NCBI GenBank assembly: GCA_025782575.1
Contig: JALGYY010000028.1
Span: 1-64,000, forward strand
DNA: 64,000 bases
Reading direction: 5' to 3'
Source of the DNA: a bacterium
GTDB lineage: Bacteria > Orphanbacterota > Orphanbacteria > Orphanbacterales > Orphanbacteraceae
Below the pieces are notes generated by a model. It was not told where the DNA came from. It ran no database searches and saw only the letters and a program-made list of their open reading frames with translations. The position numbers and the translations under genes were made by a program. Each line of letters opens with the position of its first letter. Positions within the stretch are counted from its first letter, which is position 1. Of this stretch, positions 1,538 to 31,220 are shown piece after piece.

Positions 1538-2716
1538 TCAATCCGAGGCAATTTGAAGAGCGACCATGAGCTCGACCAGTTTCCCAAAGCACTGAGGGCT
1601 ACGGTCGCCTATGAGATATTCCTCGATTTCCAGAAGGCTAGAGTGCTTGATCTGTTTCGGTGGATGAGCTGCGGCATTTCGGATAGTTCTTAAACGCTTC
1701 AGCCAGGTCAGGTTTTGGTACACATCCGTAATCCTGCGATTGAAGCAACTCCCCATTGCGGCTTTTTGGAACCCTTGGTCTTCCAGGATCCCGATAGCTT
1801 TGCCTAGGGAGAGTCTTGAGTTCTTGAGATAAGAGTGGATCGCCTCCGCCATAAGAGATGTTTCCCTCGATGGACCTTGTATTGCCTCAATGATTCCAGT
1901 GCAAAGAACTCGTTCAAGCGCACGGGTGTACTGGATGATGGCGCCGCTGCATTCTGGGTTTTTTGCGGTCCCTTTCTCGTGAAGATATTGGAGGTGTTGT
2001 GAGTGCATCCAGCCGTAGGCCAGGAAGAGCCTAGAGTTGTAGTCATGCTCAAGTCGCTTCCACGTTTCAGCGAGATTCTCGCTAGATTGGAGGAGCTGCA
2101 TAGCCGACTTGACGCCTACGGGGAACACCGTCTCTTCAAGCTGGGCAAAAGCAGACAGGCCCAATTTCGATAGAGGCTCTCTATCGTCGAATAACTCGCT
2201 TGCATCTACACTATCAATCCAATCGGGCAGCATTTGACGATCGGACCGGTATGGATCAAAGCCAAGCTTATCCATCAGGTATTTATTTGTCTCTACGGGA
2301 TCGTGTGAAACGACTCGGATATCATCAATCTTAAGCCAGAAACCCCGCTGCTTAATGTGCTCTTTGTAATAACCGGGTACCCTGCTTTGATCGGTGGCTT
2401 GGCGCAGGGCGTCTTCGGATATTGCCCCTGTGATACGGATCGCGTGGATGGAGCTGAAATCGGTGACGAATCCGAGAAGATATTTGTTCAGTTCTCCCTC
2501 AGAGTTGGAATCTAAATATCTGGAGATTCGGCGCCACATTTGCTTGAGATGAGCCTGTTGAGCATCCGTCCCACTCTTAATGATCTTGCCCCAATAGACG
2601 TAGGGATCTTGAGCGCCGTTTTCATAGCACTGTTTCAATATCTCAACATGTTCCCTTATCGTTGCAGGGAGGAAGAAGGGGTTCCAGGCTAGTAGGATGG
2701 CGGGTATATTGCTCAC
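1538..2716 (-). CDS. Uncharacterised protein with C-terminal HEPN-type RNxxxH motif (copy A)
   Basis: A 392-aa protein of unknown function. The N-terminal third has conserved W-N-P, D-P-x-V-x-W, T-D-F, V-P-G-Y-Y and D-I-R-V-V blocks. The C-terminal region is helical and ends with I-R-N-A-A-A-H-P (encoded around 1663-1680), which fits the R-x4-6-H signature of HEPN ribonuclease domains. A clear paralogue lies at 15231-16441, downstream of the Zorya genes, and shares all these blocks. The GTG start overlaps the stop of the upstream RlmJ-like gene by 4 bases (GTGA), so the two are probably translationally coupled. HEPN proteins are frequent toxic RNases in toxin-antitoxin and defence systems; RNase activity here is an inference. 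The N-terminal domain could be PUA- or ASCH-like, but I cannot show that. Confidence 0.6.
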   Translation of the reverse strand: MSNIPAILLAWNPFFLPATIREHVEILKQCYENGAQDPYVYWGKIIKSGTDAQQAHLKQMWRRISRYLDSNSEGELNKYLLGFVTDFSSIHAIRITGAISEDALRQATDQSRVPGYYKEHIKQRGFWLKIDDIRVVSHDPVETNKYLMDKLGFDPYRSDRQMLPDWIDSVDASELFDDREPLSKLGLSAFAQLEETVFPVGVKSAMQLLQSSENLAETWKRLEHDYNSRLFLAYGWMHSQHLQYLHEKGTAKNPECSGAIIQYTRALERVLCTGIIEAIQGPSRETSLMAEAIHSYLKNSRLSLGKAIGILEDQGFQKAAMGSCFNRRITDVYQNLTWLKRLRTIRNAAAHPPKQIKHSSLLEIEEYLIGDRSPQCFGKLVELMVALQIASD

Positions 2717-3648
2717 TTCTGTTCAGTCCCATCGGAAAGGTCGATCGCCAGATTCACCATCGAATCTTCTTTGCGTAAGACGTTCTCAAGTGCCTTCGTG
2801 TATGCAGATAGTGCGCGCTTCAATGGCGATCCCATGTTTGAAATCACCCGGGGGGGCATGCATATGACCACCTCTGCTCCGTAGGTCGATTCTCCCAGAA
2901 TCCCGGTTCCAGAGAGTGGGGGGCAGTATATTGACCACACGTGCTGCAACAGCGCATTTCGCTGGTCTCGATATGTTTGGATTGCTTCAGTATTGTTTGG
3001 GTCGAGCAAGATGAAGAGAACTACAATGCAATTCGAAGCTACATCTCTTATATCCGGGAACACATCTGGTGGGTGATCGGGGAGGAAATCCGCAAAGGGA
3101 TCGATCAAGACGAGGCTGTCAGGTGTGGAGCATTTCAGGAGCGAGTATCCATCGCCTCGGTCGTAGTTTGGCAACTCGATCGGCTGGAGTCCGCACTGCA
3201 CTAGATTTTCCAGGCGATCAGAATTCCGATCCCCTACGTAGACCTCGATAGTAGAATTGAGCTTTTCGCCAACAGCTCTAGCAATGTGACCGCTGCCGAG
3301 ATATCGGTTTTCGATATCGGATTGAGCATCTTGAATCGTGAATCCGTTCAGCGCCTTAACTCGCTGAACGACACGATGGTGTGGAGGGTCCTGCCACGGA
3401 ACACCTCCAAATGGGTCGTAAAAAGAAGGAGTTCCCGGGCCGCTCCTGACCCAGCACGCGAGAATCTCGGAGATGACACCGTGCTTCAGTAGATCCCCGG
3501 CGTTGCCCATGTCGTATGGCAGGGGAGAATTCACTGCATTCCTCCTTGAGGGGTACAGTAAGCCTCTGGGGGCGATCCGCCTAGAAGAAAATTCAGTCAG
3601 CGTGGTTGGGTTGACCGATTGGCGATCGCCCCCGATCCCTAGTTGCAT
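2713..3648 (-). CDS. RlmJ-like methyltransferase-fold protein
   Basis: Resembles the RlmJ/three-Cys-motif-partner group of SAM-dependent methyltransferase folds. The motif G-N-A-G-D-L-L-K-H-G matches the RlmJ 'GNxxDVLKH' block, F-Y-D-P-F-G-G resembles the Y-D-x-x-A-G-x-G block, R-Y-L-G-S-G the Y-P-G-S-P block, and V-L-I-D-P-F-A-D the catalytic-site V-L-I-D-P-P block. The catalytic NPPY/DPPY-type motif has therefore become DPFAD, so methylation is uncertain. The reading frame stays open to a TTG at 3687. I prefer the ATG at 3648, but conserved sequence begins only near the ATG at 3510. It overlaps the following HEPN-motif gene by 4 bases. A modified 'immunity' or sensor role beside a putative RNase is inferred, not shown. 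Confidence 0.5.
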   Translation of the reverse strand: MQLGIGGDRQSVNPTTLTEFSSRRIAPRGLLYPSRRNAVNSPLPYDMGNAGDLLKHGVISEILACWVRSGPGTPSFYDPFGGVPWQDPPHHRVVQRVKALNGFTIQDAQSDIENRYLGSGHIARAVGEKLNSTIEVYVGDRNSDRLENLVQCGLQPIELPNYDRGDGYSLLKCSTPDSLVLIDPFADFLPDHPPDVFPDIRDVASNCIVVLFILLDPNNTEAIQTYRDQRNALLQHVWSIYCPPLSGTGILGESTYGAEVVICMPPRVISNMGSPLKRALSAYTKALENVLRKEDSMVNLAIDLSDGTEQK

Positions 3649-3879
3649 TCCTGTATAGCTTCTTGGCACCGGATCAAAAGCACACAAATCCTACAAAGAT
3701 ATGTTTCGGCTAGAATTTCCCTTTGAGAGACATGGGAATCGTCCTTTGGCTTCAATGGCGAGATTCGGCCCCGCGTACTTCGATTCTATTCCATCTTCGG
3801 ATCGGGTACGGACGTCAGCAGTGGCTTCGTGACACCCTTTTTTGCTGAGTAGTATCTGAACGCGCTCGACACGATATAG

Positions 3880-7584: not shown

Positions 7585-9760
7585 GTGTTTGAGTTCCTGT
7601 CCAGTAAGGGAGACCTCCCCGGTTTCGCAATCAAGTTCTTCCGGGGACTATGGAATAAGGCCCAGGCAGGAGACACCCAAAGTCTTGTCACGCTGATTTT
7701 CATTAGTATTATCGTTGTCCTGTTTCTGCTCGCAGTATCCCTATATCTCCCTCCTCTCTGGTCTCTGAAACGACGCATGGTTCGTGCACGAAAAATCGTA
7801 CAAAAAGCTATCAATGGTAGCGATGATTTGAACCAAGCTCGCATCAAAACCGCAGAGGGTGTCTTCCGCAATCGTGATGATGCCCGCCGGTGGAAACGGT
7901 TCAGGGATGCATGGGACGCTTCCTGCGCGAAGAACCAGGAATCAGGCTCGGTCGAGATTCAGGGCTACTTCGGGGCTGCCGAAATCATTACCAGCACAGC
8001 TCGAATTCGATTGCTCCAGGCGATGCCTGGGGCGCTGTTGTCACTCGGAATCCTCGGTACGTTCGTAGGATTGACAATGGGCCTAACCGGAATTTCCTCG
8101 ATAGATATTACGGACAGCAAGCTACTTCTCGAAAATGTTCAGGGCCTCATCAGAGGGCTGAACATTGCTTTCTTAACATCGGTATTCGGCATTTTCTTCT
8201 CAATAGTCTTCCTTTTTTGGGAGCGATTTACCTACTCAGGAGCAATGCGCTCTATCCTGAATTTCCATGCCGAAGTTGAAGCCGCATTCCCCGTTACGAG
8301 TCCGGGGGAGTTGATTTCCAGGATCTGGCAAAACGGCGACCAACAACTTCAAGTTCTAAAGACCCTAGGGCAGGATATTGCATCTTCGATCAGTGATTCG
8401 ATCGGGGGTTCCATTCAAAAGACACTGGGCCCGGCCTTGGAAGACCTGAAGGAAGCGATCGTCGAAATGAAGGAGAGTGCCGGCCAGGCCCAGGTCGAAA
8501 GCATGAATAAGCTGGTCACTCATTTCGTCGACCAAATGAACACTTCCCTTGGGAATCAGTTCGACCAACTTGGTGACACCGTGGGAGGCCTCACGAAAGA
8601 TCTCTCCACGCTGAGCGAGAGACTCACTGCCTCGGCCGAGGCCCAAGAAGAGCTCCTGGAGAAAACGCGGAGTGTGACCGAGGTGGTCGCTGTTCAGCTG
8701 CCAGCGATGCTCGAGTTCGGTTCTGGGATGAAAGGAGTGAGCCAGGCGCTGTCCGGGGCAATTGAAAAAGTGGAGGTCTTGCGCACCGCGCTAAGCGAGC
8801 AGGTGGATATATCCGCCAGAGCCCAGGAGAAAGCTGCGGCTGCCATCAATGAGGCATCTTCGGGTATTGCCGAGTCAGCGAATCGGATGGAGGGGGCGAG
8901 CAAGGAGCTCGGATCACTTGCCCAAGCCATTGAGGGTGCATTGAGCAAGGGCATGGAACAGTTTGAAGAGAATATTAGGGGTGGGGTAACTGACATTCTC
9001 CAGGCATTCGACTCCCAGCTGAGCGACATTCTCGGGAGATTCAGCGGGACGCTATCGGATGCCCGGGAGAGCATCGAGGGTCTTGCGGAGCATAGCCGTA
9101 CTGTGGCGAACGTCATTGGCGAACGTCATTGGGCCAGCATCTGAGAAGCTAGGTGTCCATGTGAAGGAACTCGCGGATCACACCTCGAGTCAGGCGGGAA
9201 TATGGGATCAGATCATCAAGTCTCTCGATGGGTTCAATACCGGGGCAAAGACGCTAGAGTCGGGAATTGCGTCTAGTATTACGGAGCAGGTGGCGGCGCT
9301 AAAGAGACAGCAGAAATCCATGACAGATATTTTGAGTCGCACAGAGACCATGGCGGGAGATCTTACGGAGCACGGCAATGCTCTTGGTAAGCGGTTTGAG
9401 CAGCTCGAGGATAGTCTAAGAACAAACATCGCTTCATTCGTCAGTGGCGCTGAAAGACTGGGAAGCCTTGGAAGTAATCTCGCGCAAGTGGATACGCAGA
9501 GTCGATACACGAGGAAACCAGAGGAAACTGGCGCCGGATCAAGATTGTTTCCATTGAAACCAGGTTCGGATGGGGGCGATGGCGATGGGGATGGTGACCG
9601 GAACCAGCTCCCTGGGGGCCACGAGCTCCCCAGCGCCGTTCCTGTCGATGAGACTCCCCCCGCTCCTCGTGACCCAGGATCACCACCGCCAACCCAATCG
9701 TCTAAGCCAGGTTCTCCAAAGAAGCCCAATTTTATTGCCCGACTTTTAGGAAAGAAATAG
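7585..9760 (+). pseudogene. zorA: zorA, Zorya MotA-like channel subunit, frame broken by 13-bp duplication
   Basis: ZorA is the proton-channel subunit of the Zorya anti-phage system, a MotA relative with a long cytoplasmic tail. Membrane helices are at about 35-55, 148-167 and 191-212, with the MotA-like P-G-A-L-L-S-L-G-I-L-G-T-F-V-G-L block at 148-163. A very long helical tail follows, then a proline-rich linker and a basic C-terminus ending L-L-G-K-K. The frame from the GTG at 7585 stops at 9144. Bases 9105-9117 are repeated exactly at 9118-9130, and removing one copy gives V-A-N-V-I-G-P-A-S-E-K and one continuous 720-aa protein to 9760. zorB starts six bases later. The start is GTG with a poor Shine-Dalgarno. 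Either a real inactivating or switchable duplication or an assembly error. Confidence 0.85.
9105..9130 (+). repeat. 13-bp tandem duplication inside zorA
   Basis: GGCGAACGTCATT occurs twice back to back (9105-9117 and 9118-9130). The extra 13 bases shift the zorA frame and cause a stop at 9142-9144. Deleting either copy restores the full-length protein. Confidence 0.95.
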
Positions 9761-14568: not shown

Positions 14569-15186
14569 GTGAGTGAATTCATTACTGCCACAACTGACAC
14601 TGTTCCCGGCTATCAAATAGATTCGATTCTGGGGATCGTGACAGCCGCAACGGAGGAATCCATCGGGGATACGGAAGATGACCTGGATACGACGGTTGCC
14701 TGGGCAAAGTCAGCATTGTTGGGAGAGCTGGAGAAGAAGGCGACCATTCTGAAGGGGCGAGGTGTCATCGACATTCAAATGGATTTTGAATTTGTCAAAA
14801 CGAAGCCGGGAGTTAAGTTATTTGCCGTTGCAGTAGGTACCGTTGTCCGATTGAAACCAGTTAAGCACAAGAAGGAGAAGCGGAAGCGCAGATCGCTGTC
14901 TCCCCAAGTGGACGACAATTCAAGTTGGGACGCTGAGCAGCTCCCAGATCCTCGCGGTGCGTGGCCCGAATTGGTACTAGACTCGATAAAGGGGTTGGCA
15001 GAATGGCTTGGGAGAAAAGAGTTTTCGCGGACGGAGCTTCTTGCCCACGTGGTAGCGGATGTCCAAAAGAAACTCGGGAGCTCTTCCAAAAACGCAGAGG
15101 CTTCATTCGGAAATGCCATCAGCAAGCTAATAAAAGAGGGCAAGATTAAAAGATTGGAGAGGGGTAAGTATCAACTGATCGACTGA
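14569..15186 (+). CDS. YbjQ-like domain fused to winged helix, fifth gene of Zorya operon
   Basis: 205 aa from a GTG preceded by AAGGGGAAG. Residues about 5-100 resemble the YbjQ/UPF0145 fold (PF01906): T-x5-P-G-Y-Q-I-D-S-I-L-G-I-V-T-A, A-x3-A-L-L-G-E-L-E-K-K-A, and V-G-T-V-V-R-L. A lysine/arginine-rich linker follows (K-H-K-K-E-K-R-K-R-R). Residues about 130-205 look like a winged helix (F-S-R-T-E-L-L-A-H-V...I-S-K-L-I-K-E-G-K-I-K-R-L-E-R-G-K-Y-Q), a form that usually binds nucleic acid. It lies 57 bases after zorD and 45 bases before the HEPN-motif gene on the same strand, so it is probably cotranscribed. A regulatory or DNA-binding accessory role is inferred; the domain calls rest on motif resemblance. 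Confidence 0.6.
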   Translation: MSEFITATTDTVPGYQIDSILGIVTAATEESIGDTEDDLDTTVAWAKSALLGELEKKATILKGRGVIDIQMDFEFVKTKPGVKLFAVAVGTVVRLKPVKHKKEKRKRRSLSPQVDDNSSWDAEQLPDPRGAWPELVLDSIKGLAEWLGRKEFSRTELLAHVVADVQKKLGSSSKNAEASFGNAISKLIKEGKIKRLERGKYQLID

Positions 15187-15230
15187 TAAGTACCCCGGTG
15201 CCAGCATCCTCCAACCCCATGGAGCCCAAA

Positions 15231-16441
15231 ATGCCCTCAACCCACATCCTGAATGTCTGGAACCCGTCATACACGACGAACACCATGGACTCCCACCTAA
15301 AAATCCTGCTGGATGGCGCGCGGAAGAGCAAGACCAGCAAAGGTGGTGTGGGGGGCTCCAGGAATACGAACGCGGCCGGCTCCCACGCCGATCCCCATGT
15401 CTGGTGGGCGAAGCTTCGCTCTCCCCGGCGCCGGGATGACAATCTTCCTCACATGGAATCGATTCTGAAGATACAGAAGCAGATCGAGCAGGGTACTGAA
15501 ACGCATCTCTACCTCACGGACTTTCAGTCGCTTTATGTCGGCTGGCTCGATCGCATTACCAGTGACGATCTTCTGGTCGACAAGAGTGAAATGCCATTCG
15601 TTCCGGGCTACTACAGAAACAAGAATTGGTCGGTCGATCTCTGGTTCCGGCTCCGTGATATCCGGCTTGTGATCACTGACGATACGCTCGGCACGATCGA
15701 CCAGCTTAAGAGTCTCAAGAATATTGCTTACGACAACAAGCCCGTTTCCATATATGGCGGGATTGTCGATCCCCCGGTTCTCGTGGAGAGGGAGACAGAG
15801 GAGCTCTGGTTCGGAAGCCGGGAAGCGCTCATCGGGGATCGCCTGTGGCGGAGTACGACGCCTCACTGCGCGGGGAGACGGCGCGAATCGCGAAGGAATT
15901 GAGGGACAACCTGTTCGGCCGGGAGGTCTGGGGCGCTCTGGAAATCTCGAGCCGGAATTTTCTTGCTTCGGGTGAGGCGATCTTTCGATCCCGAAAGGAT
16001 GATCCGAGGTTTGATTTCTCTTCTGTGGTCATGGAGTACGCCAAGGCGATCAAGGTCGAGTTGAATGTGCTCCTCTGGAGACGATTCCGAGTGTGTCTCG
16101 GCGATCTTCCGCCGAAGGATACGGTCACGCAGCTCCATAATCGAGCCGCCAAGACCGATCTGAAATCCTGCAGCGAGCATTTGTCGCTTAATGTATTGCT
16201 CGCCAATATCAAGAATAACAAGGAAGTCAAAGCTTGTGTTGAGTATGCCTTTTCGAATCCCGGATGGCTGCTTCATAGGATGCCGAAACGGCTCCGAGAG
16301 CTCACCGATCTTCGAAACCCGAGCGTGCATAAGATTGAGCTGAGCCGGGAGAGGGTCGACGAGATCCGAAACGGGCTGCTCGGAATCGGATGTCAGGGGC
16401 TGCTCAGCGAAATGGTTGAGCGCAAGATGGGGAGAGATTAG
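15231..16441 (+). pseudogene. Protein with C-terminal HEPN-type RNxxxH motif (copy B), one-base frameshift
   Basis: Paralogue of the protein at 1538-2716. Shared blocks are V-W-N-P, D-P-H-V-W-W, L-T-D-F, F-V-P-G-Y-Y, W-F-R-L-R-D-I-R-L-V, and a C-terminal L-T-D-L-R-N-P-S-V-H with the HEPN R-x4-6-H spacing. The first part runs in one frame to a stop at 15902. The second part continues one base back, recognisable from about 15836. Adding one G to the run GGGG at 15834-15837 would join them as I-G-G-S-P-V-A-E-Y-D. The frame opens at a GTG at 15198, but the ATG at 15231 has GGAG six bases upstream and aligns with the start of copy A. No RlmJ-like gene accompanies this copy; it follows the Zorya operon. 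Assembly error or genuine pseudogene. Confidence 0.65.
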
Positions 16442-16531: not shown

Positions 16532-17317
16532 ATGTCACCTGATCAATTCCTGGCTACCCACCGGGTCTTCACCCGGGCGGAGCTGCTCGCCGCCCTCGGC
16601 GGGCGGTCCGCGGCCACCATGGATCGAACCCTGGCCCGCTGGCGGCAGCGGGGGCGGATCGAGCCGGTCAAGCGGGGCCTCTTCGTGCGCGTGAGGTCGG
16701 GGGAGGCGCTGCCGGACTATGCCGCTCTGGCGGCGCGCATGGCCCCCGATGCGGCCGCCGCCTATCACACGGCGCTCGAGGTGCACGGCTGTGCCCAGAG
16801 CCTGTTCGAACGCTTCCACTTCGTGACCTGGACCGGGGTCAAGGCGGCCACGTACCGCGGAAGGGATCTGGTACCGGTCCGGCCGAGGGCGCGGCTCGCC
16901 GCCGGCGGTGGTGATGGCGGCGAGGGCTGGATCGAGACCACCGAACGCGACGGCCTGGAGCTTCGCGTGACCAGCCTGGAGCGCACCGCCGTCGATGTGC
17001 TGGATCGCCCCAACCTGGCCGGAGGCGTGGAAGAGGTCTGGCGCTCGCTCGCCGGCCTGCCCGCTATCGATCCGGTCGCGCTACTCGATTACGTGCTCGT
17101 CTTGGAGAGCGCTCGCGTGGCGGCACGGGTGGGGTTCTTTCTGGAGACGCGGCGCGAAGAGCTGGCCGTGCCCGCATCCACACTTACGGCGCTCCAAAAA
17201 ATGTTGCCCAGACACCCTGTCCATATGGAGCGCGCCCTGGGGGGACGGTTGAATCGACGCTGGTGCGTGATCGTACCCGCGGAGCTGGCAGGGCCACCCG
17301 AGGAGGGCGGGGCATGA
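16532..17317 (+). CDS. abiEi: AbiEi antitoxin of type IV toxin-antitoxin module
   Basis: 261 aa, ATG with GGAGG nine bases upstream. The N-terminus is a winged helix (F-T-R-A-E-L-L-A-A-L, R-T-L-A-R-W-R-Q-R-G-R-I-E-P-V-K-R-G-L-F-V) typical of AbiEi regulators. The C-terminal domain has the AbiEi_1-like L-R-V-T-S-L-E-R-T-A-V-D-V-L-D-R-P block. AbiEi represses its own operon and neutralises AbiEii without direct protein contact. The stop overlaps the start of the toxin gene by four bases (ATGA at 17314). Local GC content is clearly higher than in the Zorya genes just upstream, suggesting a separate acquisition. Confidence 0.88.
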   Translation: MSPDQFLATHRVFTRAELLAALGGRSAATMDRTLARWRQRGRIEPVKRGLFVRVRSGEALPDYAALAARMAPDAAAAYHTALEVHGCAQSLFERFHFVTWTGVKAATYRGRDLVPVRPRARLAAGGGDGGEGWIETTERDGLELRVTSLERTAVDVLDRPNLAGGVEEVWRSLAGLPAIDPVALLDYVLVLESARVAARVGFFLETRREELAVPASTLTALQKMLPRHPVHMERALGGRLNRRWCVIVPAELAGPPEEGGA

Positions 17318-18278
17318 TCACTCGTACCCGGCTGGAGACTGTGGCCAGGGAGAGCGGGTTCCGTCCCGTCGTTGTCGAAAAGGTGATGCGGCTTTGCCGC
17401 GTTCTGCGCCGGCTCGATTCCCATCCGACCACCGAGGGCGCCTGGCTGCTGAAGAGTGGCACGGCCCTGAATCTGCTGCACCTGGATGTACCGCGCATGT
17501 CGGTCGATATCGACCTCAACTATATCGGTGCGGTGGATCGTGAGGGCATGGTGGCCGCGCGGCCCGGGTTCGAAGCGGCGCTTGTCTCCATCTGCGAGCG
17601 AGAGGGCTGCACGGTCAAACGCGTACCCGGCGAACACGCGGGGGGCAAGTTCCGCCTGCGATTCGTGAGCGTCTTCGGCGGCTCTCAGAATCTGGAAGTC
17701 GATGTCAGCTATGTGGCACGCGTGCCGCTCCTGGGCACCGAACGACGGACGACTCGCTTCCCAGAGGACGATGCCGTCGAGGTCAAACCTTGCCGCTGTT
17801 GGAACTGGCTGCCGGCAAGTTCACGGCTCTCTTGCAGCGATCGGTGGCCCGCGACGCGTTCGACGCCGCCAACCTGCTGCGGCGAACCCCGGACCTGTTG
17901 GAACAAGCGGACTTCCGCCTGGCTTTCGTCTGCTCCGTGGCGGGCGGCCGCCACGATCCGCGCGAGCTGACCCCCACGGACCCACAGCCGACCGGGCTGG
18001 CGGTAGGGCAACAGCTGATTCCCATGTTGCAGGAGCGGGAATCCCTCGACCCGGAGGCCAGGAGCAAACAATTGCAGGAGGCTCTGGAAGGGGTCGCCGC
18101 ACGCTTGCTTCGCTGGTCGCCGGCCGAACGGGAGTTTCTAGACCGACTGCATGAGGAGGGCGAGCTGGACGCCGTCATCCTGCACTCCGATCCGAAGGTC
18201 CAGCGGCGGATCGAGACCCAGCCGATGCTGCTATGGAAAGCGCAGAACGTTCGCCGCCACCTCAAGGGAGACCGATAA
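17314..18278 (+). pseudogene. abiEii: AbiEii toxin nucleotidyltransferase, one-base frameshift
   Basis: Nucleotidyltransferase-like toxin of the AbiEii family. W-L-L-K-S-G-T-A-L at 44-52 and M-S-V-D-I-D-L at 62-68 form the G-S/T and D-x-D active-site motifs. The frame runs in register to about 17785, then the coding pattern moves back one base: L-P-L-L-E-L-A-A-G-K-F-T-A-L-L continues from 17790 to the stop at 18278. One extra A in the run at 17785-17787 would restore V-K-T-L-P-L-L-E. As read, the toxin loses its C-terminal helices. That fits an inactivated module, an assembly error at a homopolymer, or (less likely) programmed slippage. AbiEi upstream is intact. Confidence 0.85.
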
Positions 18279-29990: not shown

Positions 29991-31220
29991 ATGATCAAGC
30001 GGCTGATCAAGTGTGAGGAAGACCATGACCTGGCGCTGTCACGCATCAATGAACTTATGGGTGCCAAGCGGGGCACCTCCGCCATGGATGAGCTGGAATT
30101 GCTGACGGCACTTGTCGAAATGTATGAAGAACGACATTTCCCCATTGCCCCTCCCGGTCCAATTGACGCGATCAGGTTCCGCATGGATCAACTCGGGTTG
30201 GGCCAGAAAGACATGATCCCTTTCTTAGGCACGAAGGGGAGGGTTTCTGAAATTCTTAATGGGAAGCGAACGCTTACCCTGGCCATGATGCGAGCACTGA
30301 ACCAGGGCCTTGGCATATCTGCGGAGGTGCTTCTGAAGGAACCGGGCGCCCGGTTTCCGGACGAAGTGAAGAACGTGGAATGGTCCCGATTTCCTGTTGC
30401 TGAAATGATTGAACGCTGCTGGATTCCGAAAGTGGATTCTCCAGGGGATAGAGTCGAAGAGGTAATGCGCGGTTTTATTGCCCGGTCGGGTGGTCTGGGC
30501 ACCGTCCAGGCCGCACTCCTACGCCAGGGAAGCCGGGGAAGGCATAACCCGAAGATGGACCCGTATGCACTCACCGCGTGGTGCCTTCGCGTGCTGGCAT
30601 TTACTGAAATGCACCCCCTGAACTCTCCCTATGTTAAGGGCTCCATCAAGAGAAGCACTTTGCGGGAAGTGGCGCGGTTGAGTTATTTTGACAACGGCCC
30701 CCTGCTCGCAAGAGAATTCCTTGAAAAGCATGGGATCCATCTGATTGTGGTTCCCCACCTTCCCCGGACGTATCTTGACGGTGCCGCGATCATGACGAAG
30801 GGGGGTACCCCCGTCATCGGGTTAACACTTCGCTATGATCGAATTGATAATTTCTGGTATTGCCTGCTTCATGAACTGGCCCATGTCTCGAAGCATCTGT
30901 CGTCATCCGATCGGTTGATCGTTGACGATCTGGACCTCCATGGAAAAGGGGGTGGAACAGAGGATCGGATTGAAAAGGAAGCGGATGAAATGACCCGCGA
31001 AGGACTGATCCCCCAAAAGGTATGGGATAAGTGGTCGATTGAGGGGAAGGGAACTACGGCAGCAGTTTATGAGCTGGCGGCAAGGCTAAAGATTCACCCC
31101 GCGATTATTGCTGGAAGAATTCGCTACGAGCAGAATAACTATAGATTGTTGTCGAGGCACGTGGGCACTCGAGGGATCCGAAAGCACTTCTCCGAGCAAT
31201 TTACTGCAGGTCTGTTGTAG
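29991..31220 (+). CDS. higA: HigA antitoxin fused to ImmA/IrrE metallopeptidase
   Basis: 409 aa, ATG immediately after the toxin stop. Residues about 55-120 form the HigA-type domain with M-D-Q-L-G-L-G-Q-K-D-M-I-P-F-L-G and the HTH helix K-G-R-V-S-E-I-L-N-G-K-R. Residues about 215-400 are an ImmA/IrrE (DUF955) peptidase with the zinc motif L-L-H-E-L-A-H near 289-295. ImmA/IrrE peptidases cut XRE repressors in several mobile elements. This arrangement therefore places the repressor and a protease of its kind in one chain, beside the toxin. It could provide damage-inducible release of the toxin, which is inference. The zinc ligands look intact. Confidence 0.88.
   Translation: MIKRLIKCEEDHDLALSRINELMGAKRGTSAMDELELLTALVEMYEERHFPIAPPGPIDAIRFRMDQLGLGQKDMIPFLGTKGRVSEILNGKRTLTLAMMRALNQGLGISAEVLLKEPGARFPDEVKNVEWSRFPVAEMIERCWIPKVDSPGDRVEEVMRGFIARSGGLGTVQAALLRQGSRGRHNPKMDPYALTAWCLRVLAFTEMHPLNSPYVKGSIKRSTLREVARLSYFDNGPLLAREFLEKHGIHLIVVPHLPRTYLDGAAIMTKGGTPVIGLTLRYDRIDNFWYCLLHELAHVSKHLSSSDRLIVDDLDLHGKGGGTEDRIEKEADEMTREGLIPQKVWDKWSIEGKGTTAAVYELAARLKIHPAIIAGRIRYEQNNYRLLSRHVGTRGIRKHFSEQFTAGLL

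Follow-up and report, generated by a model that had tools for sequence, protein, structure and literature searches.

We found that an RlmJ-like methylase gene (gene A) is translationally coupled to a gene for a protein with a Pua-like N-terminus and a probable HEPN C-terminus (gene B) inside a bacterial defence island, and that the methylase family recurs beside other HEPN- or nuclease-like genes in other genomes. The analysis covered 64,000 nucleotides of one contig (hereafter the window), and genes A and B lie near the contig start on the minus strand (host assembly 4.9 Mb, 49 contigs). We tentatively propose that the pair is a mobile RNA-directed modify-and-cut defence or toxin module.

Organization of the Two-Gene Unit

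Gene A (2713-3534, minus strand, 273 aa) was identified as an RlmJ-family methyltransferase from its open reading frame (ORF), an alignment of 8-11 family members, an AlphaFold (AF2) model, and a fold match. Judging from the sequence, its start is almost certainly the GTG at 3532-3534 rather than the upstream TTG at 3687 of the mechanically called ORF, because a ribosome-binding site, GGAGG (complement of 3541-3545), precedes this GTG by 6 nt and all relatives start a few residues before the block LPYDxGNAGDLLKHG. Gene B (1538-2716, minus strand, 392 aa), defined by its ORF and homologues, starts with the GTG at 2714-2716, and thus its start overlaps the stop of gene A by 4 nt (GTGA, 2713-2716, minus strand). 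The first-pass annotation had described a translationally coupled unit at 1538-3648; both ORFs and the stop/start overlap are present, but the corrected start of gene A reduces the extent of the unit to 1538-3534.

Gene A Retains the Catalytic Lysine and Aspartate of RlmJ but Not Its Substrate-Site Residues

Gene A had no convincing match among Pfam, NCBIfam, or PADLOC families. Its AF2 model, built on an alignment of eight homologues, reached a mean pLDDT of 89.6, and among solved structures Escherichia coli RlmJ and its counterpart from Legionella came closest, with a Foldseek E of 2e-10 and VIA Z scores of 21.7-23.5. The E. coli enzyme matched the model with a Z of 23.5 over 240 residues, compared with 13.1 for the next different fold, and the RlmJ-like methyltransferase fold assigned earlier from the sequence was thereby supported.

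In a profile alignment to RlmJ and a joint alignment, the RlmJ residues N12, D15, K18, D143, D164, and P165 corresponded to invariant positions in the intact family members. The equivalents of N12, D15, and the catalytic K18 lie in the NAGDLLKH block (RlmJ motif X; 3481-3504, minus strand), and D164-P165 is kept in motif IV, DPFADF (3085-3102, minus strand). In RlmJ, the K18A and D164A substitutions each destroy activity (PMC3814359); Y4 and H6 are likewise essential, and W195 faces the target base. In the joint alignment, Y4, H6, and W195 were all replaced in the gene A family, and DPPY had become DP-[FY]. The DPFAD motif had been noted as an altered active site; the second proline is indeed lost, but this is no local oddity, since DP-[FY]-x-x-F is conserved across the methylase family, and from the alignments the change does not look like a sign of lost catalysis. 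We infer that gene A may encode a SAM-dependent amino-methylase that is still active but whose substrate site has changed.

Two other identities were considered and rejected: an inactive methylase does not fit the invariant catalytic lysine and aspartate, and the cell's own RlmJ does not fit the changed key substrate residues. With Y4 and H6 replaced and the second proline of DPP[YF] missing, gene A is not an orthologue of the m6A2030 enzyme; nor is it a housekeeping duplicate, because a profile search found no ordinary RlmJ (PF04378) in the host genome. Since the residues that are needed for or line the substrate site of RlmJ (Y4, H6, and W195) are not conserved, the substrate of gene A may not be an RNA adenine. 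Compared with RlmJ (YhiR), the 23S rRNA m6A2030 methyltransferase, gene A thus has the same fold, the N12/D15/K18 block, D143, and D164-P165; however, the identity is only about 17%, Y4, H6, and W195 are absent, DP-F stands for DPPY, the helical subdomain (insert) is shorter, PF04378 does not recognise the protein, and the gene sits in defence loci with nuclease genes adjacent.

Gene B Carries a Pua-Like Domain and a Probable HEPN Region

The N-terminal domain of gene B (2267-2701, minus strand), with its WNP, VYWGKI, TD, VPGYY, and WLKIDDIR blocks, had been left without a name. We found that the first ~145 residues resemble two named families: Pfam Pua-like (PF24405) at E 2e-5, just under the cut-off, and the NCBIfam HP0729 family (NF041917) at E 2e-10, the latter match scoring 40.6 bits against a cut-off of 250 and covering only residues 7-142. 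A very weak similarity to the anti-phage phosphoesterase DS9_1 (NF053862) was also seen for the Pua-like N-termini encoded at 1538-2716 and 15198-15902, so that one type of sensor may be joined to effectors of several kinds.

The C-terminal region (1541-2134, minus strand) is predicted to be helical and HEPN-like from a conserved YxxAxE helix and an R-x4-H motif. This motif, RNAAAH (residues 346-351; 1664-1681, minus strand), had been placed at the very end of the protein; it is present, but about 40 residues before the C-terminus. The C-terminal ~200 residues aligned with four relatives: P0004, the window paralogue of gene B, L014 (from the related genome G003, intact and of the HP0729 family), and L018 (a fragmentary Bradyrhizobium plasmid protein). 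R346 and H351 were invariant, R-x4-H being found in all five proteins (RNAAAH, RKDASH, RNPAAH, RNPSVH, and RNPAAH) and a YxxAxE-type helix in most of them. The motif alone is weak, as 19 of 144 long ORFs carry R[NHQKD]xxxH among their final 100 residues (chance level, about 13%), a frequency that rules it out as proof of HEPN by itself; its weight comes from the invariance in five homologues. Sub-threshold matches to HEPN families fell at the same spot, namely DUF4145 in gene B (E 0.04) and Ymh in L018 (E 0.2), and DUF4145 is established as HEPN (PMC3710099). The AlphaFold model of gene B (two-sequence alignment; pLDDT 44) returned only coiled-coil or helical noise in Foldseek and was too poor for use. 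On these sequence features, the C-terminus of gene B is a probable HEPN domain. Gene B has the N-terminal domain in common with the HP0729 family/Pua-like PF24405, and its YAKAxE and R-x4-H blocks align with two members of that family, the window paralogue and L014, but methylase coupling is found in gene B alone.

The Pair Resides in a Defence Island

As had been claimed, the pair lies inside a defence island, in which we found ZorA, ZorB, ZorC, ZorD, AbiEi, a PD-Lambda-2_B homologue, and genes of the PD-(D/E)XK/PDC-S26-like and HNH types. The PD-Lambda-2_B homologue (29991-31220) is a full-length protein of the HTH plus ImmA/IrrE-like type (PADLOC E 3e-145). PADLOC 2023 profiles gave no match to gene A or B at E 1 or better, nor to P0003 at E 0.1 or better. 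The gene B paralogue reported to follow the Zorya operon is real (15237-16426, plus strand; HP0729 family; motif RNPSVH), but it is broken by a frameshift and has no RlmJ-like partner; it shares 42-45% identity with L014. Directly upstream of it, at 14569-15186, a YbjQ-like domain is fused to an AbiEi-type winged helix, possibly forming a pair of its own with the paralogue. ZorA is seemingly split into two overlapping frames (7585-9144 and 9059-9760), the frameshift of the paralogue lies at 15848-15866, and a multi-frame ORF pattern follows AbiEi (17263-18278); these breaks suggest that the assembly has frameshifts here or that the island is decaying.

Recurrence of the Pair and Exchange of Nuclease-Like Partners

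Both genes recurred at a locus (L006) of genome G006, from the same family, with the same 4-nt overlap (L006/L004) and identities of 39% (A) and 29-31% (B). There, the pair lies 18-27 bp downstream of hmaC on the same strand (PADLOC HmaC E 3e-71), and the neighbours of the window copy are different, indicating that the pair travels as one unit. The pairing is therefore not unique to the host genome, and the methylase family also recurs beside other HEPN- or nuclease-like genes. The family is rare: only eight methylase loci were found in the 84,980 species genomes scanned, an order-level search added two, and phylum samples of Acidobacteriota (396 genomes) and Pseudomonadota (398 genomes) gave the methylase profile nothing beyond its seeds. 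The gene B profile in Pseudomonadota and NF041917 in Acidobacteriota likewise gave no hits, but both also stayed silent in all control genomes, so that these two results say little about absence. No relatives of A or B were found in plasmids, phages, or viral contigs; a search with L014 gave a single relative, matching at the C-terminus and encoded on a plasmid of Bradyrhizobium. Near the methylase in the otherwise unrelated loci L006 and L030, proteins resembling ADP-ribosylglycohydrolases are encoded (L006:4055-4903 and L030:2719-4293; 31% mutual identity, E 5e-22).

The partner of the methylase follows its clade: the window and L006 have a Pua-like-HEPN protein, L009 and L010 have DUF429, and L007, L008, L011, L030, and L031 have a second HEPN-type family, unrelated to the first, that we call HEPN2. 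DUF429, a predicted nuclease, is encoded tail-to-tail with the methylase in L009 and fused to it in L010. The fusion, in a Pseudomonadales MAG (L010:7983-9659; PF04250 E 3e-43), has a HEC-07-like gene upstream. No partner is visible in L005, in which the contig ends near the methylase gene.

HEPN2 is a protein of ~235 aa with the motif VR[NHQ]QIVHG, in which R and H are invariant, and its gene stands tail-to-tail with the methylase in all five intact Vicinamibacterial loci (in L007 it is split over two frames). Except for the syntenic L007 and L008, the flanks of these loci are unrelated, indicating that methylase and HEPN2 were retained or moved together. Among 149 Vicinamibacterales genomes, six carried the methylase and the same six carried a close HEPN2; simple sampling gives this coincidence a probability of 7e-11, a figure that is overstated because the genomes are related. 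The C-terminus of gene B had no similarity to HEPN2 in hhalign, and the two types were therefore treated as unrelated. Distant HEPN2 relatives on alphaproteobacterial plasmids are annotated "HEPN domain-containing protein" in RefSeq; the five inspected (L034-L038) have no methylase and stand next to nuclease, helicase, or transfer genes, often beside a TM0106 RecB-like nuclease, SbcCD-like, WYL, or transfer genes. They are probably solo HEPN defence genes.

HEPN-Type Genes without a Methylase and Alternative Explanations

HEPN-type genes also occur without an intact methylase. G013 holds one methylase copy that is spread over three frames and has no HEPN2 adjacent; at another of its loci, HEPN2 is intact whereas the neighbouring methylase is reduced to about 27 residues, and a further HEPN2 copy has no methylase nearby. 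Sequencing errors could account for the frame breaks. The HP0729-type relatives of gene B (L014 in G003 and the window paralogue) likewise stand without a methylase. This persistence weakens a strict toxin-antitoxin reading and argues against an obligatory methylase guard for HEPN-type genes, and a strict antitoxin role for gene A was rejected on account of G013, with its intact HEPN2 and broken methylases. A toxin-antitoxin pair in which A holds B in check, either by binding it or by modifying it much as MNT nucleotidyltransferases AMPylate HEPN toxins, and in which RNA methylation is beside the point, is unlikely in our view. In its favour, type II toxin-antitoxin operons typically show this gene order, with A first and overlapping by 4 nt, the pairing is kept while partners are exchanged, and HEPN-MNT is a known toxin-antitoxin system with an enzymatic antitoxin (PMC11586414). 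However, HEPN2 genes remain intact in G013 beside a remnant or with no methylase nearby, the tail-to-tail layout of the Vicinamibacterial loci is unusual for such systems, and conservation of the SAM and catalytic residues implies that A acts as an enzyme.

By analogy with the YTH-like domains of CoCoNuTs, A might instead methylate RNA of the cell or the phage, with the Pua-like domain of B reading the mark and switching the HEPN nuclease on or off. EVE and YTH domains are modified-base readers that co-occur with HEPN in CoCoNuTs (PMC11090510; PMC7641849), and the Pfam Pua-like match of the gene B N-terminus would fit such a reader. We nevertheless regard this as quite improbable: the PUA-like fold of B is putative, HEPN2 partners pair with the same methylase although they have no Pua-like domain, and HP0729-type proteins have the domain but no methylase. 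Chance neighbourhood, in which defence islands commonly carry RlmJ-like genes and, independently, HEPN genes, would explain why both HEPN families are also found without the methylase and why L005 and one G013 locus have a methylase with no visible HEPN partner. It is hard to reconcile with a 4-nt overlap conserved across 29-39% identity, with the constant tail-to-tail arrangement and the shared occurrence in the same 6 of 149 genomes among Vicinamibacterales, or with the methylase fusion in L010; we consider it the least probable of these alternatives and largely refuted.

Relation to Known Systems and a Proposed Mechanism

Several described systems resemble the pair in part. HEPN-MNT toxin-antitoxin (type VII) likewise couples a HEPN-type effector to an enzyme gene, but the partner here is a SAM methylase of the RlmJ type and no nucleotidyltransferase, and the HEPN gene can persist alone. 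CoCoNuT type IV restriction is similar in its predicted RNA targeting by HEPN and modified-base-reading domains (PMC11090510); in contrast, the present unit has two genes only and no McrB-like GTPase, McrC, or coiled coils, and a scan of the closest neighbouring genes, both in the window and in L006, found no McrB-like protein. As for the BREX-related systems centred on Hma/DUF499, the L006 pair follows hmaC on the same strand, but next to the window copy and the other examined members Hma genes were absent; the pair looks like cargo rather than core of Hma systems. The searched passages of the 2013 HEPN survey mention no such methylase, and the 2026 BREX survey discusses HEPN fused to DUF499 ATPases and HEPN as auxiliary effectors, with neither RlmJ nor HP0729 in its text. 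The pair had not been recognised as a described system from its sequence, and we likewise found no description of a methylase plus HEPN pair in the open-licence literature. The pairing therefore appears undescribed, its parts being known families in a new combination; the term is provisional, because the search covered open-licence papers only.

Under the modify-and-cut proposal, gene A would be an RlmJ-descended, SAM-dependent RNA adenine methylase that marks a host RNA, with an rRNA or tRNA stem-loop as the likeliest target, and gene B would be a HEPN ribonuclease effector with an RNA- or modification-sensing Pua-like N-terminus. The mark would spare host RNA from B or keep B silent; infection would upset this balance, and B would then cleave RNA and arrest phage growth. 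The parts have precedents: m6A placed by RlmF/RlmJ affects phage T5 (PMC11619597), HEPN toxins have enzymatic antitoxins in HEPN-MNT (PMC11586414), and HEPN occurs with modified-base readers in CoCoNuTs (PMC11090510). A full RNA-level modification-restriction system, in which the RlmJ-derived methylase marks self RNA, the HEPN RNase cuts only unmarked RNA, and the nuclease partner (Pua-like-HEPN, HEPN2, or DUF429) is exchanged between lineages, is a more doubtful possibility.

If the modify-and-cut reading is right, RlmJ-type methylation would have a function beyond ribosome maturation. Few RNA-cutting effectors of bacterial immunity are as common as HEPN RNases, and, to our knowledge, little has been learned about how cells shield their own RNA. 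A rare family of RNA methylases with several unrelated nuclease-like genes as lasting neighbours would allow the marking of self and non-self at the RNA level to be tested directly.
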